NCBI GenBank assembly: GCA_900320595.1
Contig: ONSW01000024.1
Span: 1-34,372, forward strand
From: an uncultured Eubacteriales bacterium
Lineage (GTDB): Bacteria; Bacillota; Clostridia; Oscillospirales; Oscillospiraceae
Reading direction: 5' to 3'
Length of the DNA stretch: 34,372 bases
The notes under the pieces are model-generated. The model worked only from the letters and a program-made list of their open reading frames with translations. It was not told the DNA's origin and did not search any database. Each line of letters opens with the position of its first letter. Within the stretch, counting starts at the first letter, position 1. The position numbers were made by a program, and so were the translations under genes. This document shows positions 6,186 to 22,634 of this stretch, piece by piece.

Positions 6186-7619
6186 TTAAGACAGCTTCCA
6201 GCCGCCTGTTTCACACTCGCCGTGCTCGTTTTCGCCGAGCGTGATGACGTCGCCGCTCTCCGTGACGAAGGCGCAGTGCGTCCCGCCCGCGGCCATCGCG
6301 GCCACGCCGCGCAGAGGAGAGAGGTCGAGCTCCGCGTCGGGGTGGAAGAAGACGGCGTGGACGCGCCCCTGCGCGTCGAGCCCCAGGACCGCGTTGGCCG
6401 AGGCCGCGACCGCGACGATGTCCGTCCATTCGGAGAGGTCGGCGGCGGCGCAGACCGCGCTGCCGTCCTCACGCAGGCCGACGGCATAGCCCGTATTGAC
6501 GGCGATGCCGCACAGATCGTGCAGCTCGTCCGAGCGCGCGCTCTCATGCGAGAGCAGCGCGTCGCCGTCCTCCCGCAGCGCGGCGAGCGCATAGGAGCCG
6601 CCCGAGATCGCCGTGATCTTCGTCCAGTCGGAAAGCGTGGGATAGCCGTTGAAGCCGCAGACGACGACCGTGCCGTCGCGCCTCAGCCCGAAGGTGGCCC
6701 AGTCCGCCGCCGCTATGGCGACGATGTCTCGCCATTCCCCCACCTCGCACTGGCCCTCGTCGCTGCGGCCGGCAGCGACGACCGTGCCGTCCTCGAGAAG
6801 GCCGACGGTGTGGTACGCGCCGGCGCAGATCGCCTTGACATGGCGCCAGGCGCTCACGTCGCATTCGCCATAGCTGTTGTCGCCGCAGGCGAGGACCGTG
6901 CCGTCGCGCCTGAGCGCGGCCGTATGGTAGAACCCGACGGCCACGACGTCCTTCGGCAGGGAATCGCGCTTTTCTTTCAGTTCGTTCCGGTGTGCGACCT
7001 CGGACGGGGAGAGATAGCGCGCCGCGGCCAGCGCCGCGTCGAGATCCCGCCGCCCGCAGATCGTCACCGCAAGCTTCATCGCCCGCTCGCGTGCGTCGGC
7101 GTAATCGCCGAGCTTGTGGAACAGGAGGATGCTCTCGTGGACCTCTCCCTCCCGCTCGAGCGCGTCGGCCTTTTCATAGCGGGCGCGCTGCGCCTCCTCC
7201 GGCGCGTCGGCATAGGCGCCGAGTGCGTCAAAGTGCGCGGCCGCCTCGTCCCAGGCACCGTTTTCCAGCTCCTCTTCCGCCAGGCGGTAGCGCGCCTCGG
7301 CATAGCCCTCGGCTGCGCCGGAGGCGTCGCCGAGCGAGGCATAAAGCGCCGCGGCCTCGCGCCACTCGCCCGCTTCCATGCAGGCGGCCGCTTCGGCAAA
7401 GCTGCAGCGGGTTTCGAACGCTGCGCGCAGCTCCTCGTCTTTGATCCTCGCGGTCAGGGTGGAGGCGCGGGCGGTGTCGCCGCGCGCAAGCGCCTTTTCG
7501 ATCCGTTCCGGAAGGCTTTCCGCCGCGGCAGCGGAAAACGCAAGCGCGGCCGTGAGCAGCAGCGCAAACGCAAGCGTTGAGAGGAAGATCGTCCGTATGA
7601 CCGCTTTTTTCTCGTTCAT
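6186..7619 (-). CDS. Secreted TPR-like plus RCC1-repeat protein
   Basis: The 477-residue protein begins with a signal peptide (hydrophobic residues about 9-32, Ala-rich end). Residues about 35-215 are helical TPR/Sel1-like repeats in which 'LGDYADA'-type turns recur ('SLGDASGAAEGYAEARYRLAEE', 'LGAYADAPEEAQRARYEKA', 'KLGDYADARERAMKLA'). From about residue 225 to the end there are RCC1-type blades of the form W-x-x-I-V-A-I-A-A-G-x-x-H-T-x-G-L-x-x-D-G-T-V-x-A-x-G, about six or seven, enough for a beta-propeller. Such proteins usually bind partners rather than catalyse. It is the last gene of the operon after the MBOAT and DHHW genes, 15 bases behind the latter, so a role in the same surface-modification complex is likely but inferred. 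Confidence 0.8.
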   Translation of the reverse strand: MNEKKAVIRTIFLSTLAFALLLTAALAFSAAAAESLPERIEKALARGDTARASTLTARIKDEELRAAFETRCSFAEAAACMEAGEWREAAALYASLGDASGAAEGYAEARYRLAEEELENGAWDEAAAHFDALGAYADAPEEAQRARYEKADALEREGEVHESILLFHKLGDYADARERAMKLAVTICGRRDLDAALAAARYLSPSEVAHRNELKEKRDSLPKDVVAVGFYHTAALRRDGTVLACGDNSYGECDVSAWRHVKAICAGAYHTVGLLEDGTVVAAGRSDEGQCEVGEWRDIVAIAAADWATFGLRRDGTVVVCGFNGYPTLSDWTKITAISGGSYALAALREDGDALLSHESARSDELHDLCGIAVNTGYAVGLREDGSAVCAAADLSEWTDIVAVAASANAVLGLDAQGRVHAVFFHPDAELDLSPLRGVAAMAAGGTHCAFVTESGDVITLGENEHGECETGGWKLS

Positions 7620-7634
7620 CGTCTCTCCTCCCCG

Positions 7635-8948
7635 CTATGCGATGTCCGCCGCGTCCAGAAAGCGCTCGAGCCGCCAGGAGAAGACCGGCCCGTTGATCGA
7701 GGTCCACTGGCAGGTGATGATGTAAACGTCGTCGACGTCGTAGTATTCCATGTACTCCCGGATGCTCGCGCCGACGAGGTCGAGGTTGTAGTTGTTGTTG
7801 CGCAGATCGGTCTGCAGGATGCTGTCATAATAGGGGAAGAGATAGTAGGCCATCGCAAAGGCATAGCTGTCGGAGATGATCAGCGCGCTGCGGCCGGTAT
7901 GGAAGCCCGTTTCAAACAGGCGGTACGGCCCCTTCGCCCCGCCGAGATACATCGTATAGCCGTGCTGCCTGAAGTTATAAATCTCCGTCGGCTCGCGCTG
8001 TGTCAGGCCGGTGATGCACGAGGCCGTCACCGGCGAGAGGATCCGCGGCACCATCAGGTTTTCGCGCGTGATCGTCATGTCCTTGAGCTGCTCCGGCGTA
8101 TAAGGTCCGTTTCGGATCGTGTCACGCAGATAGTAGTCATAGTCGTAATAATCCGTCGGAGCGTAGCCGAGGTCCTCGACAAAGGCATTCGAAACACGCC
8201 ACGCCGTTTTGACATACCAGTGCAGGTCGCTCGTTGAGAACAGCGCGCCCTCATCCCGGTAAGGCTCAAGAAGCCTGGGCACATTATAGATCTTTACGCC
8301 CCGGTTAAGCAGCGGCTGCATTGCCTCATCAAGATCATAGCCCCAGTCGGCATAGCGGTGCGTGTCGAGCACGTCGTTGGCCACGTCCGAGGCCGGAGAA
8401 TTGACGAGGAAGATCCGGCCGTTTTCGCCCAGCGCTTCGCGGTAGCGGTTGAGCACCGATGCGACATGGGACACGGTCTCGGGCGTGTACTGCTCGATAT
8501 TCTTGACCGTGCCGTCCGCCCGCACGACCCAGAGCGCGGCGCTCTTTGCCTCGGCGGCGGGAAGGGTCTCCTCCTGCTTCGGCGCAGCGGCTGATACAGG
8601 CGCGCTCTCCTCCGGTGCGAAATCATCGATCATGCCAAGCTCTTCGTCAAAGACGCGCCTGGCCTCCTCCTGGGCGTCGGTCCTGCCGAACACGCCCGTC
8701 AGCGCGTTCGACACGGCGATCATCCGCTCGCGCGCGGGGAAGGCGTCGGAGAGATAGTTCTCAAATTCCTCCATATAGCGGCCGGAGGCAACGGCGTCGG
8801 CGCGCAGCTCCGGAAAGGGCTGCAGCGTGCGGTTCTCGGTTTCGGACACGCCGCCGGATCGATCGGCAAAGAGCAGCAGGAAGAGCCCCAGCGTCAGACA
8901 GCCGAGCAGAAGGATATAGTTTTCGGCAAATCGAAGATACTTCTTCAT
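7635..8948 (-). CDS. DHHW/AlgJ-like surface protein, partner of the MBOAT acyltransferase
   Basis: The 437-residue protein has one N-terminal membrane helix (about residues 11-29) followed by an extracellular SGNH-like domain. The early 'SETENRTLQPFPE' and 'FENYLSDAFPARE' stretches are signatures of the DHHW/AlgJ/AlgX group. The family motif appears as 'SDLHWYVKTAW'. A further conserved element is 'ALIISDSYAFAM', where the Ser-Asp resembles the nucleophile block of SGNH esterases. Residues about 105-135 are a Pro/Glu/Ala-rich linker. In known systems such proteins, encoded next to an MBOAT protein, help transfer acyl groups to an exported polymer. It lies 50 bases behind the MBOAT gene. The acceptor polymer cannot be told from the sequence. 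Confidence 0.85.
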   Translation of the reverse strand: MKKYLRFAENYILLLGCLTLGLFLLLFADRSGGVSETENRTLQPFPELRADAVASGRYMEEFENYLSDAFPARERMIAVSNALTGVFGRTDAQEEARRVFDEELGMIDDFAPEESAPVSAAAPKQEETLPAAEAKSAALWVVRADGTVKNIEQYTPETVSHVASVLNRYREALGENGRIFLVNSPASDVANDVLDTHRYADWGYDLDEAMQPLLNRGVKIYNVPRLLEPYRDEGALFSTSDLHWYVKTAWRVSNAFVEDLGYAPTDYYDYDYYLRDTIRNGPYTPEQLKDMTITRENLMVPRILSPVTASCITGLTQREPTEIYNFRQHGYTMYLGGAKGPYRLFETGFHTGRSALIISDSYAFAMAYYLFPYYDSILQTDLRNNNYNLDLVGASIREYMEYYDVDDVYIITCQWTSINGPVFSWRLERFLDAADIA

Positions 8949-8998
8949 GGCAAAAACTCCGTTTTATACCGGTGTCTGCTTTTCATCCGAAAGCAGGA

Positions 8999-10405
8999 TC
9001 AGAAGCGGAAATAGATAAAGGGATTGTAGCTCTGTCCGACGAGAAAAACGAGAGACAGGGCAAAGAGCAGCGCGACGGCGCACGCGCGCACGATCGCGGC
9101 CGTACGCTCGCCGCCGCGGGCGAGCAACAGCCGTTTTGCCGCCGGAACGACGGGCAGCGAAAAGACGAAGGCCACCAGCGGGAAGAGCGACCAGCGCCGC
9201 ATGACCTTCCATGAGGCCGCGTCGCAGAAGGGCAGCGCCGTGCCGCCAAGGGGGAACATCGCGCGCAGCGTGCCGCCGAGAGCGGCGAGGTCGGTCTCAT
9301 AAAAGATCGCCCAGCCGACGACCGCGACAAGGAAGGTCACGGCCCAGCGCAGCGCCTTCGGCGCGCGGTCGAGCACGCGCTTGAAAACCGTGCGCTCCAG
9401 CACGAGCAGCACGCCGAAGTAAAGCCCCCAGATCATAAAGTTCCAGGCCGCGCCGTGCCAGAAGCCCGTCAGCGTCCAGACGATCAGAAGGTTGAGGATC
9501 GTGCGCGCCGCACCGCGGCGGTTGCCGCCGAGGGGGATGTAGACATAGTCGCGGAAAAAGCTGCCGAGCGAGATGTGCCACCGCCGCCAGAACTCCGTGG
9601 CAGACAGGGAGACATAGGGGTAGTTGAAGTTTTCCTTATACCGAAAGCCCAGCACGCGCCCCAACCCGATCGCCATGTCCGAATAGGCGGAAAAGTCGAA
9701 ATAGATCTGCAGCGTGTAGACGAAGGCGTGATACCACGCGCCGGCAAAGCTCGCCGCGGCGCCGGGCATCGCCTCGACCACCGCGCCGCAGAGGTTGGCA
9801 AGCAGCACCTTTTTTGCAAGGCCCGTGACAAAGCGCTCGATCCCGGTGCTGAAATCCTCCACGCTCGTCGTGCGCGCGTCGAGCTGCTGCTCGATGTCGG
9901 CGTACTGGACGATCGGGCCCGCGATCAGCTGGGGGAAGCAGCTGACGTACAGCAGCAGCTTCCAGAAGCTCTTCTGCACGCCCACCTTCCCGCGGTAGAC
10001 GTCGATGGTATAGGTCAGCACCTGGAAGGTGTAAAAGGAGATCCCGATCGGCAGACGGATCTGCGGCGCCGCGACTTTCAGCGAAAGGAGAGCCGCCACG
10101 TTTTCAAAAAGGAACGAGAAATATTTAAAATAAAAGAGCAGCGCAAGCGACACGCCCACGCCGAGCGCGCAGGCCGCCTTGCGCCTGCGCGCATCCGTGG
10201 CCGCGCCGATGGCCCGCGCGCAGAGATAGTTCACCGCCGTCGAGCCGAGCATCGCCAGCACGCACACCGGCTCGCCCCAGGCGTAGAACAGCAGCGACGC
10301 CGCGACCAGCACCGCGTTTTTCCCTCTCAGCCCCGGCGCCAGAAAGTACAGAAGCAGCACGATCGGCAGAAAGAGCAGCAGAAAGGTCATACTTGAAAAA
10401 ACCAC
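8999..10405 (-). CDS. MBOAT-family O-acyltransferase (AlgI/DltB-like)
   Basis: The 468-residue polytopic membrane protein has about ten hydrophobic segments. Conserved MBOAT/AlgI features are present: 'FNYPYVSLSATEFWRRWHIS', 'RDYVYIPLGGNR' and 'TLTGFWHGAAWNFMIWG', whose His is the catalytic residue of the family. It would pass an acyl group, probably acetyl, across the membrane to the partner protein encoded next. I chose the GTG at 10405 because GGAGGATGAC stands directly upstream and because the resulting N-terminus VVFSSMTFLLLFLPIVLLL matches the usual MVFSS..F start of this family; an ATG five codons later is less well placed. It is the first gene of a three-gene operon with the DHHW and RCC1/TPR genes. 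Confidence 0.93.
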   Translation of the reverse strand: MVFSSMTFLLLFLPIVLLLYFLAPGLRGKNAVLVAASLLFYAWGEPVCVLAMLGSTAVNYLCARAIGAATDARRRKAACALGVGVSLALLFYFKYFSFLFENVAALLSLKVAAPQIRLPIGISFYTFQVLTYTIDVYRGKVGVQKSFWKLLLYVSCFPQLIAGPIVQYADIEQQLDARTTSVEDFSTGIERFVTGLAKKVLLANLCGAVVEAMPGAAASFAGAWYHAFVYTLQIYFDFSAYSDMAIGLGRVLGFRYKENFNYPYVSLSATEFWRRWHISLGSFFRDYVYIPLGGNRRGAARTILNLLIVWTLTGFWHGAAWNFMIWGLYFGVLLVLERTVFKRVLDRAPKALRWAVTFLVAVVGWAIFYETDLAALGGTLRAMFPLGGTALPFCDAASWKVMRRWSLFPLVAFVFSLPVVPAAKRLLLARGGERTAAIVRACAVALLFALSLVFLVGQSYNPFIYFRF

Positions 10406-10432
10406 GTCATCCTCCAGGAAAAGAGTCGTTTC

Positions 10433-10461
10433 ATTATAAACCGTCCCGGCCGTAAAATGAA
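10433..10461 (-). promoter_or_regulatory. Probable promoter of the MBOAT operon
   Basis: A perfect TATAAT -10 (10438-10433 on the minus strand) has only a weak -35 (TTCATT, 10461-10456) at a 17-base spacing. The predicted start is near 10426, about 20 bases before the GTG. The weak -35 suggests low activity or the need for an activator. Confidence 0.5.
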
Positions 10462-10472
10462 GTCCTTTTACC

Positions 10473-10504
10473 AAAAAAAGCCCCGTTTTTTCAAAAACGG
10501 GGCT
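10473..10504 (-). terminator. Terminator of the C69 dipeptidase gene
   Basis: AGCCCCGTTTTT and AAAAACGGGGCT form a 12-bp stem with a two-base gap. A run of T residues follows on the minus strand. It lies 15 bases after the dipeptidase stop codon and upstream of the MBOAT promoter. Confidence 0.85.
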
Positions 10505-10518
10505 CTGGTCCTTGTCGC

Positions 10519-11979
10519 TTAGTTGTCCGCGCGGTTGAAGCCGTTTTTCATATGCATGCTCGACTCGTAAAGCACCTTGCCAAGCGTATCGGTGGTCTGC
10601 TCGCGCGCCATTTTGCACAGCTTTTCGTTGGCCTCGGCGGCAAGAGAGAAGTCGCCGGTCTCGGCCATGCGGCGGTCATACTCGCGCACGATCCGGCGTC
10701 CCTGGGTCATGACGGCGTTTTCATAGCGCTCGATCTGCTGGATGCAGCTCGGGTAATCGTGGTCGGCCAGCGCGCCGATCAGCCGGCTTGCCCAATAGTA
10801 GTTCTCGGTCGAGACGTCGAGCGTCACATTCGAAAGATATTTCGGCAGCTTCGGCACGTTCGGGTATACGGGCAGCATCGCGGCAAAGGCCGTCGAGCCG
10901 AAGCAGATCCACTCGATCCCCCGGATCGCCTCCGGCATGCCGGGACGGATCTGGCAGATCGACGTGACGCCGGTGCGGTTGATGCCGATCGAGCGGTACT
11001 TGCCCCGCTTGCCGGTATCGCGGCCGAGATAGGGATCGAATTCCGTGCCCTGATAGTGGCCGGAGAGCATATACTTCACGTCCTCCACGGCAACCTTGCG
11101 GTCGGGCACGAAGGACCAGGGGATGTTGTCGCTCTCGGGCGTGAACTCCGTATTTTCGCCCTCCCAGCGGTGGGAATACGGCGTGAGATACCGTCCCATG
11201 AACCAGGCGCGCGGGGTGTTGTAGATGTGGTCCATGTCGGTGTGCGAGCCGAAGATATCGCGCGGGTTGAACGCGCCGTTCCGGTTGAGATCCAGGTCGT
11301 TTTCCGTGATGAAGTCCCGCAGGTCCTTCGAGCAGAGATGCGCCTTCCCCGCGCCGAGCGCGTCGTCAAGATCAAAGGCGTCCATGCCGAACTGGTTGGG
11401 GTTGACGACGACCACGTCGTCCGGCACGCGGCGCGCCATCCAGTGGCGGCCGCCGATGGTCTCCATCCACCAGACCTCGTTTTCATCGTTGAAGGCGATG
11501 CCGTTGGATTCATAGGTGCCGTACTGCTCGAGAAGCGCAGCGAGTCTCTCCACGCCCTCGCGGGCGGTGCGGATATAGGGCAGCACGAGCAGAACGATGT
11601 CCTCCTCGCCGATGCCGCCGGGGATCTCCTTTTTGCGGCCCTCGGCCTTTTGCAGCACGACGAGCGGATCGGCCGCAAGGACGCGGGGGTTGGAGGTGAT
11701 GGTTTCGGTCGCGGTCATGCCGACGCCGGCTTCGTTGATGCCGGTGGCGGCCCAGACGCCGTTTTTGGGGTCTACGCTGGGACAGGCCGTGCAGCGCATT
11801 GCCCCCTCCTCCAGCGGGATCGTAACATGGGACAGGACGCTTTTGTATGTTGTTTTCCCCTTCTTCGGCTCGAGCACGATCATCTTTTTGACGTCGAAAT
11901 GCCCGTCGTCCGTGCGGGCGATCATCGTCGAGCGGTCGTTGGATGCGGCCTTGCCGACCAGAACGGTTGTGCAGGACAT
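10519..11979 (-). CDS. C69-family dipeptidase (PepD type, Ntn-hydrolase)
   Basis: The 486-residue protein begins M-S-C-T-T-V-L-V-G. In this family the early Cys becomes the catalytic N-terminal nucleophile after removal of the leading residues. Other family signs are 'ASNDRSTMIARTDDGH', 'GINEAGVGMTATETI', 'DENEVWWMETIGGRHWMARRVPDD' and the later 'GRYLTPYSHRWEG'. It most likely hydrolyses dipeptides in the cytoplasm, since no signal peptide is present. The ATG at 11979 has AAGGAGG eight bases upstream; an in-frame ATG at 12021 overlaps the promoter and has none. It is transcribed divergently from the Sel1-repeat gene, with the two promoters back to back in about 140 bases. It ends at its own terminator. 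Confidence 0.93.
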   Translation of the reverse strand: MSCTTVLVGKAASNDRSTMIARTDDGHFDVKKMIVLEPKKGKTTYKSVLSHVTIPLEEGAMRCTACPSVDPKNGVWAATGINEAGVGMTATETITSNPRVLAADPLVVLQKAEGRKKEIPGGIGEEDIVLLVLPYIRTAREGVERLAALLEQYGTYESNGIAFNDENEVWWMETIGGRHWMARRVPDDVVVVNPNQFGMDAFDLDDALGAGKAHLCSKDLRDFITENDLDLNRNGAFNPRDIFGSHTDMDHIYNTPRAWFMGRYLTPYSHRWEGENTEFTPESDNIPWSFVPDRKVAVEDVKYMLSGHYQGTEFDPYLGRDTGKRGKYRSIGINRTGVTSICQIRPGMPEAIRGIEWICFGSTAFAAMLPVYPNVPKLPKYLSNVTLDVSTENYYWASRLIGALADHDYPSCIQQIERYENAVMTQGRRIVREYDRRMAETGDFSLAAEANEKLCKMAREQTTDTLGKVLYESSMHMKNGFNRADN

Positions 11980-12016
11980 GCGTTTTTCCTCCTTGTTTCG
12001 ATGGCTTTCGTCTTGC

Positions 12017-12045
12017 ATCATAGCACACTTTCAAAACCGCGACAA
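12017..12045 (-). promoter_or_regulatory. Promoter of the C69 dipeptidase gene
   Basis: On the minus strand: TTGTCG (12045-12040), 17 bases, TATGAT (12022-12017), with TGC before the -10. The predicted start is near 12010. Confidence 0.7.
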
Positions 12046-12061
12046 CTTCTTTTCGGAAGCG

Positions 12062-12090
12062 TTGTCATCGGCGGGAAAAAGTGTTATTCT
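12062..12090 (+). promoter_or_regulatory. Promoter of the Sel1-repeat gene
   Basis: TTGTCA (12062-12067), 17 bases, TATTCT (12085-12090). The -35 boxes of this and the divergent dipeptidase promoter are only 16 bases apart, so one regulator could influence both. Confidence 0.55.
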
Positions 12091-12121
12091 CATAATAAGA
12101 ACGATCTATGGGAGATCTCAC

Positions 12122-14389
12122 ATGGACGAGAACAGAACGAATTCATCTGAATACGAAGCGGCGCCGGAGCAGGTCGTCTTCTTCTCGCCGGAATTTCTGC
12201 AGGCTGCCCAGCAGAAGCAGGACCGGCTCGGCGCGATCCGCGCGGCGGCCGAAAGCGGCGACGCGGCCGCGCTCTTTGAGCTGGGCGTCTATTCGCTCGG
12301 CGAGCTCGGCGGGCAGCCGCGCGACGCCGAGGAGGCCTTCCGCTGCCTCTCCCGGCTGCCGCACGACAACGCGGCGGGGCTGTTTTATCTCTCCTATTGC
12401 TATGATATGGGCGTAGGCACGGAGCGCGACCTGAACAAGGCGGCCGCGCTGCTCTCGGAGTCGTCCGAGCTCGGCTACGCTCCCGCTATCAGTGCGCTGG
12501 GGCTGTGCTTTGAAAACGGCCGCGGCGTCGAGCGCGACGAGAAAAAGGCCGCGGAGCTCTATGCCCGGGCCGCCGAGCAGGACTATCCCCCCGCGATCTG
12601 CAACCTCGCGGTCTGTTACCGCGCCGGGATCGGCGTGGAGCAGGATCTCATCCGTGCAGCCTCGCTCTTTTCCCGCGCCGCCGAGCTGCACTTTCCCCGC
12701 GCGCAGCAGCTGCTTGGCGTGTGCTACGAGTTCGGCGAGGGCGTGCCGCTCGATCTGAAAAAGGCCTTTCTCCTCTATGAGGAGGCAGCGCGCCAGGACT
12801 ATCCGGAGGGGATCTGCTCGCTGGGCGTGATGTACTTCAACGGCCGCGGCTGCGAGGAGGACAGGGAAAAGGCCTTCTCCCTCTTCCGCCGGGCAGCCGA
12901 CATGGGACTTGTGCGCGCCCAGTTCATCACGGCGCGCTGCTATGACAACGGCGACGGCGTCGCGCCCGATCCCGCCGGGGCCTTTCGCTATTACACGCTT
13001 GCCGCGGACGGCGGCCACAGCGACGCGATGTTCCTCGCGGGGCTCTGCTGCGCCGCCGGCCAGGGCACCGAGCGCGATCCGGCGCGGGCCGCAGCCTTCT
13101 GGCAGCGCGGCGCAGAGGCGGGAAACGTACGCGCAATGGCGCACCTCGGCGTCTGCTATGAGGCCGGGCGCGGCGTGGAGGAGGATATGGAAAAGGCCGT
13201 CGCCCTCTACCGCGAGGCCGCGGAGAAGGGCGGCGCGGAGGGGCAGTGCGATCTCGGCGCGCTCTACCGCGAAGGCGTGGGCGTGGAGCAGAACGACGAA
13301 ACGGCCGTAGCGCTCTTCGAAAAGGCGGCGGCGCAGGGGCTGCCGCGCGCGCAGTTCCTGCTTGGGCTGCACTGTGAGGTCGGCCGCGGGATCGAAAAGG
13401 ACCGCGAAAGGGCCGCCTCGCTCTATCGTGCGGCATCCGCGCAGGGCTATGTGCCCGCCACGCGGGCGCTCGGCGTTTGCTATGAATGCGGCATCGGCGT
13501 GGAAAAAAACATGCAACGCGCCTTTGAGTTGTTCTCCCGGGCAGCGGAAGGCAAAGATACGCTCGCGACCTATTATCTTGCCAACTTTTACTTCGTCGAA
13601 TATGAGCCGGTTGAGGATGTACATCGTGCCGCCGAATTGTATCGTATCGCTGCGGAGGACGGTCACGGCGGCGCCCAATGCCAGTATGCCTACTGTCTTA
13701 GAAAAGGTGTCGGCGTTGAGCAGGACGCTGCGGCCGCAGCGTCCTGGTATGAAAAAGCTGCCGAGCAGGGCGAGGGCAACGCTCTGTATAATCTCGGGCG
13801 GATGCTGGAAGATGGCGAGGGCGTTCCGCGCGATCCATCCCGCGCCGCAAAGCTTTACCGCCTTGGGGCAGAGGCCGGAGACAAGTTTGCCATGCATGAA
13901 CTGGGCAGAGTCTATCGGGACGGCATCGGCATCAAGCGAGACAAAAAGCAGGCTTCTTTCTGGTTTGAGAAGGCCGCTGAGGCAGGATATCCGGATCCCG
14001 GCGCGATCACCAGGCAGCGGCAGCACGCCAATGCCGTGGGGCACTGGATGCTGCGCGTGTGCGCCGACGCCGCCCTTGCCGGCTGCTTCCTCGCGGGGGT
14101 GACCGGGCTTTCGTATCCGCGCAGCCGCGAGGATCTCATCGGCGCGGTCTACCTCGGCACGGTTGCGCTGATCTTCCACGCGCTGGCGCTCTATATGCGG
14201 CCGAAGGAACGAAAACGCGCGCCGCGCGCCGTCCACATCGTGCTCGGCGCGGTGCTTGTGATCCTGCTTCTTGCCATTCTCAGCGTGTTCTGGGGCGGCG
14301 GGGTCGTCGATCCGGAGGACATCTGGATCATCGGCTGGATCGCCGCGATCGCCGCGCTGGCCCTCTACCGCGCGTTTCGAAAACGATAA
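12122..14389 (+). CDS. Large Sel1-repeat (SLR/TPR-like) membrane protein
   Basis: The 755-residue protein has about 16 consecutive 36-residue Sel1-like repeats of the form A-x-x-x-L-G-x-C-Y-E-x-G-x-G-V-E-x-D-x-x-K-A-A-x-L-Y-x-x-A-A-E-x-G (about residues 45-625). A C-terminal membrane region with four or so helices follows (about 640-750), ending 'LYRAFRKR'. There is no signal peptide, so the repeats probably face the cytoplasm. SLR proteins are scaffolds for protein-protein contacts; no enzymatic function is visible. The ATG at 12122 has GGGAGAT upstream. The segment about 13500-14030 (end of repeat 12 to repeat 16) is clearly less GC-rich than the rest, and repeat 13 is degenerate ('FYFVEYEPVED'), which hints at a mosaic origin. 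Confidence 0.88.
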   Translation: MDENRTNSSEYEAAPEQVVFFSPEFLQAAQQKQDRLGAIRAAAESGDAAALFELGVYSLGELGGQPRDAEEAFRCLSRLPHDNAAGLFYLSYCYDMGVGTERDLNKAAALLSESSELGYAPAISALGLCFENGRGVERDEKKAAELYARAAEQDYPPAICNLAVCYRAGIGVEQDLIRAASLFSRAAELHFPRAQQLLGVCYEFGEGVPLDLKKAFLLYEEAARQDYPEGICSLGVMYFNGRGCEEDREKAFSLFRRAADMGLVRAQFITARCYDNGDGVAPDPAGAFRYYTLAADGGHSDAMFLAGLCCAAGQGTERDPARAAAFWQRGAEAGNVRAMAHLGVCYEAGRGVEEDMEKAVALYREAAEKGGAEGQCDLGALYREGVGVEQNDETAVALFEKAAAQGLPRAQFLLGLHCEVGRGIEKDRERAASLYRAASAQGYVPATRALGVCYECGIGVEKNMQRAFELFSRAAEGKDTLATYYLANFYFVEYEPVEDVHRAAELYRIAAEDGHGGAQCQYAYCLRKGVGVEQDAAAAASWYEKAAEQGEGNALYNLGRMLEDGEGVPRDPSRAAKLYRLGAEAGDKFAMHELGRVYRDGIGIKRDKKQASFWFEKAAEAGYPDPGAITRQRQHANAVGHWMLRVCADAALAGCFLAGVTGLSYPRSREDLIGAVYLGTVALIFHALALYMRPKERKRAPRAVHIVLGAVLVILLLAILSVFWGGGVVDPEDIWIIGWIAAIAALALYRAFRKR

Positions 14390-14436: not shown

Positions 14437-15366
14437 TTATTCTTTTTCCGCGAGCAGCTTTAGGATCTGCACGGCGTTCGACGCCGCGCCCTTGCGGATC
14501 TGGTCGCCGCAGCACCAGAGCGTCAGACCGTTTTCGTCGGTCAGATCCTCGCGGATGCGGCCGACCCAGACGAGATCCTGATCCGTGGTGTCAAGGGGCG
14601 TGGGGTAGCAGCGGCCCTCGTAATCCTCAATCAGACGCACGCCCGGGAAGGCGGCGACAGCGGCTCTGGCGTCCGCGACGGAGACCTTTTCCTTCGTATG
14701 CAGCGTCACGGCGATCGAGTGGGAGCGCATGACCGGCACGCGCACACAGGTGCAGTTGACCTTCAGCTCGGGGCTGTGCAGGATGCGGCGGCCCTCGTTC
14801 TGCATCTTCATCTCTTCCTTGGTATAGTCGTTGCCGTAGGGCGCGTCGATAAAGGGGATGACGTTCATCGCGATCTGCGCGGCAAAGGTCCTGACCTCGG
14901 GCTTCTCCCCGTTCGCCAGGGCTGCCATCTGGGAATTGAGCTCGGCGATGCCGGCCTGGCCCGCGCCGGAGACGGCCTGGTAGGTGCAGACGATCATCTT
15001 CTCGATCGGCGAAAGTCTCGCGATGCCGGCCACGGCCATCAGCGCGATGATCGTGCAGCAGTTGGGGTTTGCGATCAGGCCGCTGTTGTCAAAGGCGTCC
15101 GCGCCGTTGATCTCCGGCACGACAAGGGGGACGTCCGGCTCGAGACGGAAGGCGCCGAGGACAAAGTCGAGGCCCTCGAAGCTCTCGTCCGTCGCGGCCT
15201 GGATGGCCACGTCCTGTCCCTTGAAGCGGATCAGGCTGCCCGCGCTGCGCGCGCTCGCCAGCGGGCGGAGCTCCGCAACGGGAATGTCGTATTCCTCCAG
15301 GATCTTGAGCATCTCCTGGCCAACGGCGCCGGTCGCGCCGAGTACGCCGATTTTCAGTTTTTTCAT
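14437..15366 (-). CDS. asd: Aspartate-semialdehyde dehydrogenase with an internal deletion
   Basis: Asd reduces aspartyl phosphate to aspartate semialdehyde with NADPH, a step towards lysine, threonine and methionine. The N-terminal NADP loop 'GATGAVGQEML', the catalytic Cys in 'NPNCCTI', 'TYQAVSGAGQAG' and the late 'VRVPVMRSHS' His motif are all present. However, the protein is only 309 residues against about 330-345. 'GLDFVLGA' runs directly into 'FRLEPDVPLVVPEIN': about 25 residues, including the 'G(A)VVxDNSSA' strand of the cofactor domain, are missing at 15150/15151 without a frameshift. Enzyme activity is therefore doubtful, unless a second copy exists elsewhere or the gap is an assembly error. 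The ATG at 15366 has AAAGGAG upstream; the gene follows lysC in the hom operon. Confidence 0.92.
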   Translation of the reverse strand: MKKLKIGVLGATGAVGQEMLKILEEYDIPVAELRPLASARSAGSLIRFKGQDVAIQAATDESFEGLDFVLGAFRLEPDVPLVVPEINGADAFDNSGLIANPNCCTIIALMAVAGIARLSPIEKMIVCTYQAVSGAGQAGIAELNSQMAALANGEKPEVRTFAAQIAMNVIPFIDAPYGNDYTKEEMKMQNEGRRILHSPELKVNCTCVRVPVMRSHSIAVTLHTKEKVSVADARAAVAAFPGVRLIEDYEGRCYPTPLDTTDQDLVWVGRIREDLTDENGLTLWCCGDQIRKGAASNAVQILKLLAEKE

Positions 15367-15383
15367 GAATGATTCTCCTTTCC

Positions 15384-16697
15384 TCATCCCGCGAAACCGT
15401 TATAAAGAACGCGGATCGCCGTTTCAAAGTCCTTGTTGTCCACGCCGACGGTGATCGCCAGCTCATCCGCGCCCTGTGCGATCGTGCGGATGTTCACGCC
15501 CGCGTCGCCTAGCGCCTTGAAAAGGCGGCCGGAGATACCGGGACGGGAGCTCATCTTGCGGCCGACGGCCGCGACGAGCGCGATGTCCTCCTGCACGCGG
15601 ACGTCGTCGGGGCGGCAGGTCTTTCGGATGTCGGCCAGCACGTCATAGAGCGCGTCGCCCATCGCGTTCGTGCCCGACACCAGCGCAAAGCTGTCAAGTC
15701 CGAGCGTGATATGCTCGACCGGTGCGTGATAGCGATCCATGATCTCCAGCGCCTGGCAGAGCGTGTGGTTGGCGTTCATGTCGCGCTTGGTCACCGTGAT
15801 GATTGTAAAGTCGCGCTTTCCGGCGATGCCGGTGATGAAGCGCTCGCCGTCGTCACGGTCGAGCGCGTCGCCGACGATCAGCGTGCCGGGATCGTCGGGG
15901 CGGTTGGTGTTGCGGATGTTGAGCGCGATGCCCTTTTCCTTGACCGGCTCGATCGATTCCTCGTGCATGACCGAGGCGCCCATGAAGGCCAGCTCGCGCA
16001 GCTCGGCATAGGTGACCTTTTCGATCGGGCGCGGATCGGGAACGATCCGGGGGTCGGCCATCAGGATTCCGGAGACGTCCGTCCAGTTTTCATACACGTC
16101 CGCTCCCGCCGCGGCCGCCGCCAGCGCGCCGGTGATGTCGCTGCCGCCGCGGCTCATGACCTTGATCTTGCCGGTGGGCAGGCGGCCGTAAAAGCCCGGG
16201 ATCACGATCCGGCCGTGCTCCGAGAGCGCGGCGGCGATCGACCGGTCGGTCTTCTCGCGGTCAAGCTGGCCGTCAAAGCCGAAGAAGACGCACTCCGCCG
16301 CGTCGACGAAGGCATAGCCGAGGTATTCGGCCATCAGCCGCGCCGTGAAATATTCGCCGCGGGAGACCAGCTCGTCGACGCTCATGCTGCGGTCGAGCCG
16401 CGCGCGCAGCGCCTTCATCTCGCCCTCGACGTCATAGCGCAGGCCCAGCTCGCCGCGGATCTGGGCAAAGCGCTGCTCGATGGTCTGCAGGATCTCGTCG
16501 CAGGACACGCCGTAGGTCAGATGCGCGTGGCAGAGATACAAAAGGTCCGTCAGCTTGTGATCGTCCGCGCTGCGCTTGCCCGCGGCCGACACGACGACGA
16601 TGCGCCGCGAGGGGTCCGCTTCTATTATACTTTTAACTTTTTTGAATTGTTCCGCACCGGCGACGGAGGAGCCGCCGAATTTCGCAGCCTTGAGCAT
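15384..16697 (-). CDS. lysC: Aspartate kinase with regulatory ACT domains
   Basis: The 437-residue protein phosphorylates aspartate, the first step of the aspartate family pathway. The N-terminal catalytic motif is 'KFGGSSVAGAEQFKKV' (residues 4-19), later 'VMSRGGSDITGA' and 'VYENWTDVSGILMADPRIV'. The C-terminal region has two ACT-like parts ('FTIITVTKRDMNANH', 'DIALVAAVGRKMSSRPGISGRLFKALGDAGVNI'), so feedback control by an end product is expected; which one cannot be read from the sequence. The ATG at 16697 follows the hom stop codon by four bases, with GGAGG overlapping the end of hom, so translation is probably coupled. The asd start lies 17 bases after its stop codon. Confidence 0.95.
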   Translation of the reverse strand: MLKAAKFGGSSVAGAEQFKKVKSIIEADPSRRIVVVSAAGKRSADDHKLTDLLYLCHAHLTYGVSCDEILQTIEQRFAQIRGELGLRYDVEGEMKALRARLDRSMSVDELVSRGEYFTARLMAEYLGYAFVDAAECVFFGFDGQLDREKTDRSIAAALSEHGRIVIPGFYGRLPTGKIKVMSRGGSDITGALAAAAAGADVYENWTDVSGILMADPRIVPDPRPIEKVTYAELRELAFMGASVMHEESIEPVKEKGIALNIRNTNRPDDPGTLIVGDALDRDDGERFITGIAGKRDFTIITVTKRDMNANHTLCQALEIMDRYHAPVEHITLGLDSFALVSGTNAMGDALYDVLADIRKTCRPDDVRVQEDIALVAAVGRKMSSRPGISGRLFKALGDAGVNIRTIAQGADELAITVGVDNKDFETAIRVLYNGFAG

Positions 16698-16701
16698 CCT
16701 C

Positions 16702-17850
16702 TCATCCCTCCATCGCGGCAAAGAAGACCGCCGCGCCGCCGAGGCGCAGCTCCTTTGCCTTTGCGTGCATCTCGGTGACGGCCATCTCCTCCGTCACGCC
16801 GCGCACCACGTCGCCGTCAAGCTCTTTTTCCGCAAAGGGCAGGCTGTCGGCGCACCTCTCCGGCAGACGGACGTAATAGCGCTTTTTCACGACGCTGTTG
16901 TCCGCCGCGACGCGCACGCAGGAGCTCTTCATCATCTCGCGGCGGCCGTGGAGGATGTCGATGACGTCGCGCACGACGGCGGATGCCGTCGGGAAGCGGC
17001 CGGCGCCCTGGCCGATGAAGATGATATCGCCGGCGTTTTCGCCGCGGTATTTGGCCATGTTGAAGTTGTTGAGCACCGAGGCCTCGGGCGACGAGACCGG
17101 CAGCAGGCAGGGCTGGACGAAAGCATATATTGCGCCTCTCTCGCTCTCTCCCCCGCTGACGAGCAGACGCAGCACCAGATCCTTTGAGCGAAAATGGCGC
17201 ACGTCGTCGGCCGTGACCGCTTCGATCCCTTCGAGCGAGAAGCCGTCGCACGGCAGTTTGTCATAGGCCACCGCGCAGCCGAGCATGATCTTTCTCAGCG
17301 CGTCGAGTCCGGAGACGTCCGCCGTCGGGTCGGACTCGGCATAGCCGAGATATTGGGCTTCTTTCAGAGCTTCGGCATAGTCCATGCTGCGGCGCTGCAT
17401 CGCGTCGAGCATAAAGTTGGTCGTGCCGTTGAGGATGCCGCCGATGGAGAGGATCCTGTCGCTCTCCGCCGCGAGGGCGAGATTGTGCAGGAAGGGCACC
17501 GCGCCGCCGCAGGCCGCGCTGAAGAGGAAGCCCACGCCCCGCTCCGCCGCGAGTTTTGCCAGCTCCGGCCCATGTGCGGCGACGAGCGCCTTGTTCGAGG
17601 TCACGACATGCTTGCCCGCGCGCAGCGCGGCGCTGACATAGCTGTAAGCCGGCTCAAGGCCGCCCATGACCTCGGCCACCGCGTCCGTCTCCGGATCGGC
17701 GCAGATCTCCTCGATCGACGTGACCTTAAACGGCTTGTCCGCCTTGCCGGGCCGGACGAGCACATAGCGCAGCTCCAGCCCCGGCGCCGCTTCGAGCATC
17801 GAGCAGACGCCCACGCCGACTGTTCCGTATCCCAAAACCGATACTTTCAT
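16702..17850 (-). CDS. hom: Homoserine dehydrogenase with a shortened C-terminal (ACT) region
   Basis: The 382-residue enzyme reduces aspartate semialdehyde to homoserine. The Rossmann motif 'GYGTVGVGV' is at residues 7-15. Also present are 'VTSNKALVA', 'SAACGGAVP', 'GGILNGTTNFML' and 'AQYLGYAESDPTADVSGLDALRK', which carries the substrate-binding and catalytic residues. Enzymes with a full ACT domain have about 400-440 residues. Here the part after 'KKRYYVRL' is only about 50 residues and does not show the usual ACT pattern, so threonine feedback on this enzyme may be weak or absent (inference). It is the first gene of hom-lysC-asd, starting from an ATG at 17850 with AAGAAGGA upstream. Confidence 0.94.
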   Translation of the reverse strand: MKVSVLGYGTVGVGVCSMLEAAPGLELRYVLVRPGKADKPFKVTSIEEICADPETDAVAEVMGGLEPAYSYVSAALRAGKHVVTSNKALVAAHGPELAKLAAERGVGFLFSAACGGAVPFLHNLALAAESDRILSIGGILNGTTNFMLDAMQRRSMDYAEALKEAQYLGYAESDPTADVSGLDALRKIMLGCAVAYDKLPCDGFSLEGIEAVTADDVRHFRSKDLVLRLLVSGGESERGAIYAFVQPCLLPVSSPEASVLNNFNMAKYRGENAGDIIFIGQGAGRFPTASAVVRDVIDILHGRREMMKSSCVRVAADNSVVKKRYYVRLPERCADSLPFAEKELDGDVVRGVTEEMAVTEMHAKAKELRLGGAAVFFAAMEG

Positions 17851-18030: not shown

Positions 18031-19512
18031 ATGGTTTATATCAGCACGCGGGGCGGCGCCTCGGCCGGTGCGGCGGAGGCTGTCCTGCGCGGGATCGCGG
18101 CGGACGGAGGGCTGTTCGTCGACCCCATGCTCGCTCAGGAGCCCTTTGACTGGCAGCACTGTCTGACGCTCGACGCGCTCGGGATCCAGACCATGCTGCT
18201 CAAGCACTTGCTGCCGGACATCGACGGCATGGACGGGCTTTGCCGCCGCGCGTATGACGGAAAATTTGAAACGGACGAGCTCACGCCGCTCGTCAGGGTC
18301 GGAGAGGATTATGTGCTGGAGCTTTTCCGCGGCCCGACGTCCGCTTTCAAGGACGTGGCGCTTTCGATGCTGCCGCAGCTCGTCACCGCGGCGCGCACGC
18401 AGCGCGGCGAGAGAGGCGAGTGCGTCGTGCTGACGGCCACCTCCGGCGACACGGGCAAGGCCGCGCTCGAGGGCTTTCACGACGTTCCGGGCACGCGCAT
18501 CTTCGTCTTTTATCCCCACGGCGGCGTCAGTGCGATCCAGCGCGCGCAGATGGTCACGCAGGAAGGGAAAAACGTCACGGTCTGCGCCGTGCGCGGCAAC
18601 TTTGACGACTGCCAGACGGGCGTGAAAAAGGCTTTCGCCGCTCTCGCCGGCGACGAGGAGCTACTTTGCCGCGGCCTCTCGCTCTCGAGCGCCAACTCGA
18701 TCAACATCGGCCGTCTCGCGCCGCAGCTGGGCTATTACTTCATCGCCTATGCCGCGCTCCTTCGCGAGGGGCGGATCGCTCTCGGCGACAAGGTGGACTA
18801 TGTGGTGCCGACCGGGAACTTCGGCGATATCCTGGCGGGCTGGATGGCCAAGCGGCTGGGGCTGCCGGTCGGGCGGCTTGTCTGCGCGTCGAACGCTAAC
18901 CGCGTCCTGACGGACTTTTTCGAGACCGGCGTCTATGACCGGCGGCGCGACTTTTACCGCACCGACTCGCCGTCGATGGATATTCTCGTCTCGTCAAATC
19001 TTGAGCGGCTTCTCTTCTATGTCTCGGACGGAGACTGCGCTCTGGTCCGCTCCTGCATGGAGCAGCTTGCGCGGGAGGGCTTTTACCGCTTCCCGGAGGA
19101 GCTGATGGAAAAGCTGCGCGCGGAATTTTCCGCCTATTGCTGCACCGACGCCGAGGGCGCGGAGACGATCGGCGCGCTCTGGCGCGAGGAGGGCTATCTC
19201 TGCGACCCGCACACGGCCGTCGCCGTGCGTGCCGCGCAGGACTATCGCCGGGAGCGGCCGGGCGACGTGCCGCTCGTCATTCTCTCCACCGCCTCGCCCT
19301 ATAAATTCCCCGGTGCCGTGCTCGGCGCGATCGGTGGCCGTGCGGAGGGCGACGAGTATGCGCAGATGGACGCGCTCGCTTCCCTTACCGGCGTACCGGT
19401 CCCGCGCAGACTTGCCGCGCTGCGGGAGAAGGACGTGCTGCACCGCGACGTGATCGGGATCGATGAGATGATCCCGTATATCAAGACAAAACTATCGGAG
19501 GCATTATCATGA
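18031..19512 (+). CDS. thrC: Threonine synthase
   Basis: The 493-residue PLP enzyme converts O-phosphohomoserine to threonine. The N-terminus 'MVYISTRGG' is the classic start of the long ThrC type. 'ELFRGPTSAFKDVALSMLP' contains the PLP lysine. 'VLTATSGDTGKAALEGF', 'SANSINIGRLAPQ' and 'VPTGNFGDILAGWMAKRLGLP' are further conserved blocks. The ATG at 18031 has GGGAGGG upstream; an ATG eight codons earlier has no clear ribosome-binding site. The stop codon overlaps the start of thrB (ATGA at 19509-19512), so the two are translationally coupled. The pair reads away from hom-lysC-asd. Confidence 0.97.
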   Translation: MVYISTRGGASAGAAEAVLRGIAADGGLFVDPMLAQEPFDWQHCLTLDALGIQTMLLKHLLPDIDGMDGLCRRAYDGKFETDELTPLVRVGEDYVLELFRGPTSAFKDVALSMLPQLVTAARTQRGERGECVVLTATSGDTGKAALEGFHDVPGTRIFVFYPHGGVSAIQRAQMVTQEGKNVTVCAVRGNFDDCQTGVKKAFAALAGDEELLCRGLSLSSANSINIGRLAPQLGYYFIAYAALLREGRIALGDKVDYVVPTGNFGDILAGWMAKRLGLPVGRLVCASNANRVLTDFFETGVYDRRRDFYRTDSPSMDILVSSNLERLLFYVSDGDCALVRSCMEQLAREGFYRFPEELMEKLRAEFSAYCCTDAEGAETIGALWREEGYLCDPHTAVAVRAAQDYRRERPGDVPLVILSTASPYKFPGAVLGAIGGRAEGDEYAQMDALASLTGVPVPRRLAALREKDVLHRDVIGIDEMIPYIKTKLSEALS

Positions 19513-20390
19513 TCGTACGTGTACCTGCCAGCTCCGCCAATCTCGGCCCGGGCTTTGACAGCTTCGGCATCGCCTGGCAGCTTTATAATGAAATCAGTTT
19601 TCAGCTTGCCGAGGAGACGGAGATCCTCGGCTGTGGCGAGGCCTATCGGAACGAGGACAATCTGGCGCTGCGCGCCTACCGGCGCGTGCTGGAGCGCTGC
19701 GGCGTCCGAGAGGAGGGCGGCGTCTCGATCCGCTTCGGCAAAACCTCCATCCCCGTTTCGCGCGGGCTCGGCTCCTCCGCGGCGCTGATCACTGCGGGCG
19801 TGATGGCGGCAAACGAGCTGTATGAGCTCGGTCTCTCGCGCGAGAGGCTGTTCCTGCTCGCCACCGAGGTGGAGGGGCATCCCGACAACGTCGCGCCCGC
19901 GCTCTACGGCGGGCTGAGCGTGTCGGCCATGGCCGGCGGGCATGCGGTGACGCGCCGCTTCCCCGTCAGCGACAAGCTGTTCTTCACGGCGCTGATCCCG
20001 CCGTTTGAGCTGTCGACTGCGCTGGCACGCAGTGTCCTGCCCGAGAGCGTCTCCCGCGAGGACGCGATCTTCAACGTGTCGCGCGGCGCGCTGGTGCTGC
20101 GGGCGCTGGGCGACGGCGACGCGGAGCTGCTCGCCTTTGCGATGGACGACCGCATCCACCAATCTTATCGTGCGACGCTGATCGACGGCTTCTCCGCCGC
20201 GCGCATCGAGGCGCAGGAATGCGGCGCGGCCGCGATCTGCATCTCCGGCGCGGGGCCGACGCTGCTTTGCGTATCCGACAGGCCGGACTTTCCTTCCAGG
20301 ATGGAAACGTCGCTTTCGCTGACGCTGCCCGGCTGGGAGATGAAGGCGCTGACGCCCGATCTCGACGGCGCCAAGATCGCCGCGCTGTAA
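19509..20390 (+). CDS. thrB: Homoserine kinase (GHMP family)
   Basis: The 293-residue enzyme phosphorylates homoserine and so provides the substrate of ThrC. The GHMP hallmarks are 'VPASSANLGPGFDSFGIA' at residues 4-21, the ATP loop 'PVSRGLGSSAALI' near residues 84-96, 'EVEGHPDNVAPALYGG', and the C-terminal 'ISGAGPTLLCV'. Length is normal. It overlaps thrC by four bases and ends before a strong terminator (20404-20440). Together with hom, lysC and asd the window encodes every step from aspartate to threonine. Confidence 0.97.
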   Translation: MIVRVPASSANLGPGFDSFGIAWQLYNEISFQLAEETEILGCGEAYRNEDNLALRAYRRVLERCGVREEGGVSIRFGKTSIPVSRGLGSSAALITAGVMAANELYELGLSRERLFLLATEVEGHPDNVAPALYGGLSVSAMAGGHAVTRRFPVSDKLFFTALIPPFELSTALARSVLPESVSREDAIFNVSRGALVLRALGDGDAELLAFAMDDRIHQSYRATLIDGFSAARIEAQECGAAAICISGAGPTLLCVSDRPDFPSRMETSLSLTLPGWEMKALTPDLDGAKIAAL

Positions 20391-20470: not shown

Positions 20471-22456
20471 TCAGGCCCGGGCGGTCTCGGCGCTGTTCTC
20501 TTTGCGGGCCGCGATGTCGACCGCGCCGCAGGCGACGGCCAGAGCGGCCATCAGCGGGGTGTAGCCGTCGACGAGGAGCATGCGGGAGCCGAGGTTCTGG
20601 GTCAGGGCGAAGATCACGACGGCGAGGATGCCGGCGAGGATCTCGACCGTCAGACCCAGCGTGAAGCGGCGGAGGTAGCTCTGCTCTTCTTCGCTGAGCT
20701 CGTCGCTCTCACGGCTCTGCAGCTCGGAGACGCGCGCGAACTTGCTCTTCATGCCCAGCAGCGGGAGCAGGATATACAGGCTCAGGAGCGCGCAGATCAG
20801 GTTGATCAGCGCCCAGCCGTGGAGGGAGCCGGCGCTCACGACAGGAGCGGCCATCGGCAGCTCGCCGTCAAGGATCTCAACGGTGTCGGCGGCGGGACGC
20901 GCGGCAGCGAGCGTAACGATCTCGGCGCCTTCGTTCCCGGTGCTGCGGGCGGTGTTTTCCGCGGCGATCTCGGTCACGACGGCGGGGGCGTTGTCGTTCC
21001 GGACGGCGGCAGGAGCGGTCGCGACGGTCTTGGCGGCCGGGGCGGTCTCGACGGCGGTGATTTCGGCGGCTTCGGTTTCGGTGATCTCGGTCTCGGTGAT
21101 CTCGGTCTCGACGATTTCGCTCTCGACGGTCTCGGTCTCGATGGTCTCGATTTCGGCGATCTCGTTCTCGGCGATCTCGTTCTCGGCGATCTCGGTCTCG
21201 GCGATCTCGGTCTCGGCGATCTCGGTCTCGGCGATCTCGGTCTCGATGGTCTCGGTCTCGATGGTCTCGGTGGTCTTGGTCTCGAAGATTCCGGCAACGG
21301 CTTCCTTGAGCTCCTTCACTTTGGTTCTGAGCACGCCGTTGATGTTCCAGCCGTCGTTGTTGGCGGACTGGTATTTGACCTGGCACCAGAGGACCGCGTA
21401 ATTCTCGGTCGTGAGGGCGTCGGCCTCGATGCGCTTGCCGGTCTCGTCGCGCATGGTCGTCATGCCTCTGCTGACGAAGGAGGAGATCTTGGTGAGGACT
21501 TCCTCGTCGGTCGGGAGGTTGTCAAGCTTCCAGGTCACGTCGCCGGACTCGGAATCGCTCGTGTGGAGGCCGGTGGAGGCGAGGGTGCGGATGTCTTCGT
21601 CTGCCTGGCTGATGGAGGAACTCATGTAGGAGACCATCATGTACTTGCCCTGGTTGTTTTCCTTGAAGTTCAGCTCGGGGTTGTTATAGATGTCGCCGAC
21701 GTTCTTGCCTTTGTTGCCGTGGGAGGGAGAGGCGAGCTCGTCGGGGGTGATCGTGTTGCCCTCGTCATCGAGCGCGACCATGATCGAGCCGCCGACGGAC
21801 GGGGTGTAGCTGGACAGGTTCTCGCCGAGGAGCGTTCCTGCCTCGAAGCATTCGTTGGCGCTCATGGCGTTGGTCCAGAGGGAGAACTTGGCGAAGGGGG
21901 TGCCGCTGCCGGACTTCCAGCTGCCGCTCCAGGCAGAGGAGAGCACGGCGACGCCGTCGCCGTCGGCATCCAGGGTCTCGGCTGCGACTTCGCTGCCGGG
22001 AGTGACGATCTCGCCGCCTTCGGTCATCCAGCCCTTGAAGGCGTAGCTGACGTAAGCGAAGCGGTCTCTTTCGTTGCCGGTGAAGGTCTGGTAGCTGTGG
22101 GCGTCGAGGTCGTGGATCGTGACGTCCTCGCTGCTGTCGACCTGGGTCTCGTTGCCCTCGACGACGGTGGGCATATCGCCGTAAAGGCTGCCCTTGGACT
22201 TGGTCTCGACGACATCGTAAACGATCGTCAGTGTGTTCTCGTTCTGCGCGATCTCTTCGACGATCTCTTCGGCTGTCTCTTCGGCTGTCTCTTCGGCGAC
22301 CTCTTCGACGACCTCTTCGTTGATGTCTTCGACGATTTCTTCTACGATCTCTTCTTCATTCTCTGCATCGGCATAGATGCGGCCGGCGGGGAGAGCGATG
22401 GAAAGGAACATGGCCAGGACCAGGATCATGGTCAGTGTACGTCTCATTTTCTTCAT
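20471..22456 (-). CDS. Exported membrane-anchored protein with Glu-rich repeats, unknown function
   Basis: The 661-residue protein starts with a signal peptide ('MILVLAMFLSIALPAG...YADA'). An acidic stretch of E-E-I-V-E-E / A-E-E-T units follows (about residues 34-70). Then comes a domain that looks like one InlB B-type repeat ('YAFKGWMTEGGEIVTPGSEV', ending 'AVLSSAWSG'). The middle domain (about 170-385) includes 'ENYAVLWCQVKYQSANNDGWNINGVL' and is unrecognised. After it stands a second low-complexity block of five-residue units (E-I-A-E-T, E-I-A-E-N, E-T-I-E-T; about 390-465), an Ala/Val/Pro-rich stretch, and about three C-terminal membrane helices beginning 'GWALINLICALLSLYILLPLL'. The ATG at 22456 has AAGGTGG upstream. 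It is probably a surface protein anchored by its C-terminus. No LPxTG motif is present. Confidence 0.8.
   Translation of the reverse strand: MKKMRRTLTMILVLAMFLSIALPAGRIYADAENEEEIVEEIVEDINEEVVEEVAEETAEETAEEIVEEIAQNENTLTIVYDVVETKSKGSLYGDMPTVVEGNETQVDSSEDVTIHDLDAHSYQTFTGNERDRFAYVSYAFKGWMTEGGEIVTPGSEVAAETLDADGDGVAVLSSAWSGSWKSGSGTPFAKFSLWTNAMSANECFEAGTLLGENLSSYTPSVGGSIMVALDDEGNTITPDELASPSHGNKGKNVGDIYNNPELNFKENNQGKYMMVSYMSSSISQADEDIRTLASTGLHTSDSESGDVTWKLDNLPTDEEVLTKISSFVSRGMTTMRDETGKRIEADALTTENYAVLWCQVKYQSANNDGWNINGVLRTKVKELKEAVAGIFETKTTETIETETIETEIAETEIAETEIAETEIAENEIAENEIAEIETIETETVESEIVETEITETEITETEAAEITAVETAPAAKTVATAPAAVRNDNAPAVVTEIAAENTARSTGNEGAEIVTLAAARPAADTVEILDGELPMAAPVVSAGSLHGWALINLICALLSLYILLPLLGMKSKFARVSELQSRESDELSEEEQSYLRRFTLGLTVEILAGILAVVIFALTQNLGSRMLLVDGYTPLMAALAVACGAVDIAARKENSAETARA
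21061..21285 (-). repeat. Tandem 15-bp repeats encoding Glu-Ile-Ala-Glu-Thr units
   Basis: A degenerate 15-base unit (GCGATCTCGGTCTCG on the plus strand) is repeated through this stretch. About six successive units at 21156-21245 are almost identical: two with GTTCTCG and four with GGTCTCG endings. It lies within the surface-protein gene and keeps the frame, so slippage would change protein length in five-residue steps. Confidence 0.85.
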
Positions 22457-22525
22457 TGGTAGTTTCCACCTTTCAATCTTATTTGTCAGTCTGTCGCCTT
22501 CGTGGGCGGCTTCATTTCCCTTTTG

Positions 22526-22541
22526 CACGTTCATCATACCA
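22526..22541 (-). promoter_or_regulatory. Possible extended -10 promoter of the surface-protein gene
   Basis: On the minus strand TGG-TATGAT (-10 at 22538-22533) stands about 75 bases before the start codon, without a good -35 box. The surrounding 22457-22634 stretch is otherwise non-coding and AT-rich to the right of 22560. No other clear signal was seen in it. Confidence 0.35.
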
Positions 22542-22634
22542 GCCGCACCGTCAACAGAAGCATCAACAATCAATAAAATAATGCGTCTTTTTCATATTTT
22601 TATTGATTTATTGATTCCTTTTTTCGTGCCGCAC

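Follow-up and report, generated by a model that had tools for sequence, protein, structure and literature searches.

The asd gene in the draft, gut-type genome of an uncultured Eubacteriales bacterium encodes an aspartate-semialdehyde dehydrogenase (Asd) that lacks 26 residues of its NAD(P)-binding domain, and none of the relatives examined shares this short form. The most likely cause is a defect in the assembly or, failing that, an allele that was broken recently; a novel type of enzyme is not favoured. The gene lies in a 34,372 nt stretch of contig ONSW01000024.1 (termed the window), the relevant features of which are given in Table 1.

Table 1. The short asd gene, its break point and its pathway neighbours in the window
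Feature	Position	Strand	Description and basis
asd, aspartate-semialdehyde dehydrogenase	14437..15387	-	316 aa as listed, without 26 cofactor-domain residues; open reading frame, family profiles
Break point of the 78 bp deletion	15152..15154	-	3 bases, GCG on the + strand, shared by the flanks; blastn against L114
lysC-type aspartate kinase	15384..16721	-	adjoins asd; PRK09034, 464.9 bits (cut-off 434)
hom, homoserine dehydrogenase	16702..17850	-	PRK06349, 295.6 bits (cut-off 205)
thrC, threonine synthase	18031..19512	+	divergently transcribed; TIGR00260, 238.4 bits (cut-off 167.1)
thrB, homoserine kinase	19467..20387	+	stop-to-stop frame; TIGR00191, 235.8 bits (cut-off 168.25)

A 78 bp gap in an unbroken reading frame

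As the initial annotation of this DNA had reported, the sequence GLDFVLGA runs directly into FRLEPDVPLVVPEIN and there is no frameshift; the frame is also free of stops. That annotation estimated the loss at about 25 residues, or 75 bases. The loss itself is confirmed by alignment, and its size is corrected to 26 residues between GLDFVLGA and FRLEPDVP, which is exactly 78 bp and in frame. Translation more likely begins at the internal ATG of MKKLKIG at 15366 than at the listed start.

The nearest relative is a metagenome-assembled genome from goat rumen (RGIG3527, JAFSWC010000093.1; G071, locus L031), whose asd is 95% identical to the window asd over the shared part and carries the 78 bp block that the window gene lacks. 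When the window is compared by blastn with this relative (locus L114), one flank ends at 15154 and the other begins at 15152, and L114 holds between the two alignments 75 unmatched bases plus the 3 that are shared. The break lies in the middle of the contig, its position is ambiguous by these 3 bases and no longer repeat flanks it. The gap between asd and lysC is about 205 bp longer in L114 (9134-9344) than in the window (15385-15390) or in L115, and in another locus, L122, it is about 240 bp longer than in these two.

Among the loci fetched, L114/L031 was the nearest for every segment tested, namely three segments of asd, together with lysC, hom and thrC. Because both parts of asd and the three neighbouring genes thus have the same nearest relative, a chimera between species was rejected as the source of the junction.

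Family membership and the content of the lost block

The short protein is recognized as a bacterial Asd. It passes the curated cut-off of TIGR01296 (asd_B) with 325.1 bits against 324.2, compared with 369.3 bits for a full-length relative, and it scores 364.3 bits against a cut-off of 223 with PRK14874 (NF011456). Both profiles are matched in two stretches. The dimerization and catalytic domain is nearly complete (PF02774, profile positions 8-184 of 184), in contrast to the NAD(P)-binding domain, of which only the first part is matched (PF01118, positions 1-73 of 121). The protein resembles members of these families in its GATGAVG, NPNC, EEMK and RSHS motifs, in agreement with the earlier statement that motifs elsewhere in the protein, including the catalytic Cys and His regions, are intact. 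Its gene resembles theirs in having aspartate kinase and homoserine dehydrogenase as neighbours, and it differs in the 26 missing residues. The best solved relatives by sequence, known here by their molecule names only, are the Asd structures 8juo and 2gyy, the latter presumably from Streptococcus pneumoniae; a full-length relative aligns to them through the block in one stretch, whereas the window protein aligns in two.

From the Asd fold and the order of the motifs, we take the block to comprise a helix plus a strand from the cofactor-binding Rossmann domain. Eight residues within it are invariant across 46 relatives. The last serine of DNSSA, which belongs to the lost stretch, stands three residues before the invariant arginine of the phosphate site; this serine is invariant in the 46 relatives and absent from the short form, which has a glycine in its place. 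In Haemophilus influenzae Asd (PMC3276109), Ser100 likewise precedes Arg103, where an oxyanion is bound, and that study assigns both the NADP site and the active site to the N-terminal domain. With positions and catalytic roles assigned from the spacing in the same study, the short Asd retains Cys110, Glu191, Lys194, Arg216, His223 and Arg81, and Gln137 is kept as well. Cys110 and His223 are invariant in our alignment, and the threonine of GATGAVG is nearly so. Since eight invariant residues are lost with the block, the protein as written, without a helix and a strand of its Rossmann sheet and without the phosphate-site serine, is probably inactive.

The block is present in all relatives examined

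The block is found in each of the 109 other asd loci compared, so that alignment with close relatives, which the initial annotation had proposed as a check, leaves the window gene with a 26-residue gap against every one of them. These loci comprise L002-L030 from genomes of the genus and L031-L110 from the genome_contigs set; several contigs occur in both sets, and fewer than 109 genomes therefore stand behind them. Searches of whole genomes gave the same result. An asd match was obtained in 92 of 102 genus genomes, our own included, and among the matches listed our genome alone gives one unbroken stretch through the junction, which none of the 91 others does. At the level of the order, 53 of 394 genomes had a match at 1e-20, and all 52 others span the junction at full length (from residues 1-6 to residues 330-336 of the full-length relative, at least 978 bp); only our genome splits there. 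The short form was accordingly rejected as a trait of the lineage. One in-frame TAA was seen in the asd matches of G053, G160, G190, G243, G255 and G266, which are all the genomes of genus g18 with an asd match; the matches may simply end at this codon.

When all open reading frames of the window were compared with those of relatives, only asd had a clean gap that recurred identically in all the alignments. The frames at 6189-7634, 7638-8963, 9002-10675 and 20474-22591 also have gaps of at least 8 residues, each in alignments to between one and three comparators (32-78% identity); these were not judged to be lesions. As hom was displaced from this comparison by overlapping frames, its assessment relied on the family score and the nearest-relative test. 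The long frame at 11597-14389 (+ strand), which we take to consist of many Sel1-like repeats, shares 59-79% identity with the corresponding frames of three relatives and matched NCBIfam profiles only below their cut-offs.

The remainder of asd shows no decay

Outgroup parsimony, for which eight outgroup rows were used, assigns 21 synonymous changes and 6 nonsynonymous ones (S54R, E100D, K124R, K159N, K166R and K241R) to the branch of the window asd since its nearest relative; the sister branch has 25 and 8, respectively. No residue is unique to the window gene. Decay of the gene was rejected on these counts, and judged by its coding sequence the rest of asd evolves as if functional.

A single asd in the assembled genome

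The genome (G000) comprises 2,074,547 bases in 107 contigs and is 92.65% complete; from the number of contigs, the completeness and the records of its relatives, we infer that it was assembled from a metagenome. A second asd, one of the options raised by the initial annotation, is not supported: protein, PF02774 and PF01118 searches of the assembly each gave one match, in every case the window asd. Nor does the block lie elsewhere in the assembly, where a query of 126 bases of a relative around the block matched only the known flank. Both a second copy and a displaced block were therefore rejected for the sequence at hand. Since the gene with PF01118 and PF02774 is single, no argC is seen in this assembly either.

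That a real deletion is compensated by an intact second asd in sequence that the assembly lacks is highly improbable. The assembly is indeed incomplete, and a few genus genomes list two asd copies (G082, on two contigs, and G083), but contamination figures in the genus set reach 8%, and those double copies may thus be contamination; the single matches found here argue in the same direction.

Lesions of asd and its neighbours in other genomes

At least 4 of the 92 genus genomes with an asd match carry a lesion in the gene, our own included. The other three, which were found by fetching the odd rows of the genus search, in which small in-frame lesions are invisible, are a 98 bp deletion with a frameshift (G097, L120), a 40 bp deletion with a frameshift (G102, L119) and a 27 bp tandem duplication (G101, L118). 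The further odd rows that were checked (G010, G081, G083 and G107) stop where their contigs stop. Of the four lesions, two are frame-breaking, which is what an absence of selection on the frame would lead one to expect. The four fall in stretches shared exactly between species more often than random placements do (p = 0.054, 0.045 and 0.114 for k = 21, 27 and 31), a weak trend drawn from one reference gene and four lesions only.

As a control, asd and the neighbouring genes were scanned for stops, split frames and gaps of at least 6 residues in the 80 genome_contigs loci and six more (L117-L122), of which L118-L120 had been added for their lesions. Rows with lesions numbered 0 of 70 for lysC, 2 of 68 for hom, 4 of 38 for thrC and 4 of 86 for asd. 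Because L117 is the contig of L034 and L118 that of L058, the distinct cases are one for hom, three for thrC, two of which may be natural variation, and three for asd. In loci that were not picked for their lesions, the asd rate is 1 in 80 (L058, on the same contig as the G101 lesion). Thus, asd does not clearly fare worse than the neighbouring genes, for example thrC, which weakens the case for an artefact. In G026 (L117/L034), neither hom nor thrC is read in a single frame, a pattern that resembles frameshift errors.

Assembly error or recent deletion

We place the chance that the short asd arose from a local fault in the draft assembly or its consensus at about even. Under such an error, 78 bp would have been dropped from sequence that hardly differs between related species, and the real asd of the organism would be full-length and ordinary, with the block carried by the DNA molecules of the population. 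This reading fits slightly better than its main rival, a real and recent null deletion, because the draft genome is spread over 107 contigs, because three other genomes of the genus have asd lesions, two of them frame-breaking, and because the remaining coding sequence is free of decay. That our genome alone has the short form among all those examined also speaks for an error; the retention of the frame, expected by chance in one case in three, speaks against it. The specific suggestion that the assembly had collapsed about 75 bases fares less well than the broader idea of an assembly fault, in that the flanks share only 3 bases and collapse of a repeat does not explain the break.

The deletion allele that the initial annotation also considered is a serious possibility and comes a close second. 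A recent loss of 78 bp in the population, by slippage or end joining at the 3-base microhomology, would leave asd null. It retains its weight because the break is in mid-contig, in frame and without a long repeat, on a contig that is not chimeric, and the junction is clean. A recent origin would also explain the absence of decay. The relative carries within the block a 12 nt inverted repeat that is 92% complementary, but as a single strand the region folds no better than shuffled sequences do (z = -0.19), and a deletion driven by a hairpin was rejected on this ordinary folding energy. Furthermore, 10 of the 102 genus genomes have no asd match, two of these being among the 34 better genomes, so that loss may be tolerated, although incompleteness may explain their absence instead. 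Against a real deletion, lysC, hom, thrC, thrB, dapA and lysA are all retained, with no sign of a pathway in loss. None of the titles and abstracts listed in literature searches describes a natural asd deletion, and searches on assembly errors and on dapB in Oscillospiraceae yielded nothing that is used here.

A working short Asd, in which the 26-residue helix and strand would be dispensable in this lineage and a trimmed Rossmann sheet would still bind NADP and yield aspartate semialdehyde, is very unlikely. The in-frame deletion, the retained GATGAVG and catalytic residues listed above and the lack of decay are what such an enzyme would be expected to show, but its form occurs in none of the relatives examined, eight residues invariant across 46 relatives are gone and a glycine stands at the position that corresponds to H. 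influenzae Ser100 (PMC3276109).

Consequences for diaminopimelate synthesis and for the organism

In Salmonella, asd is needed for diaminopimelate, and its absence leads to lysis (PMC5591321), a requirement that speaks for an assembly error. Searches of our own genome found no dapB, so that the usual dependence of cell-wall synthesis on Asd is less certain in this organism, which to that extent favours a real deletion. In 41 genus genomes, the dapB profiles PF05173 and TIGR00036 were matched in one and three, respectively, and dapB seems to be missing from most genus genomes examined; by their sequences, two weak TIGR00036 matches look like a diaminopentanoate-dehydrogenase-like frame and an RfbD-like frame. 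Since dapA and lysA are present in our genome, another enzyme may replace dapB in the reductase step of diaminopimelate synthesis.

The short asd is a warning that key genes may seem to have suffered a loss when only one draft genome is considered. If the deletion were instead real and tolerated, the organism would depend on outside sources of threonine and methionine and of lysine or diaminopimelate.
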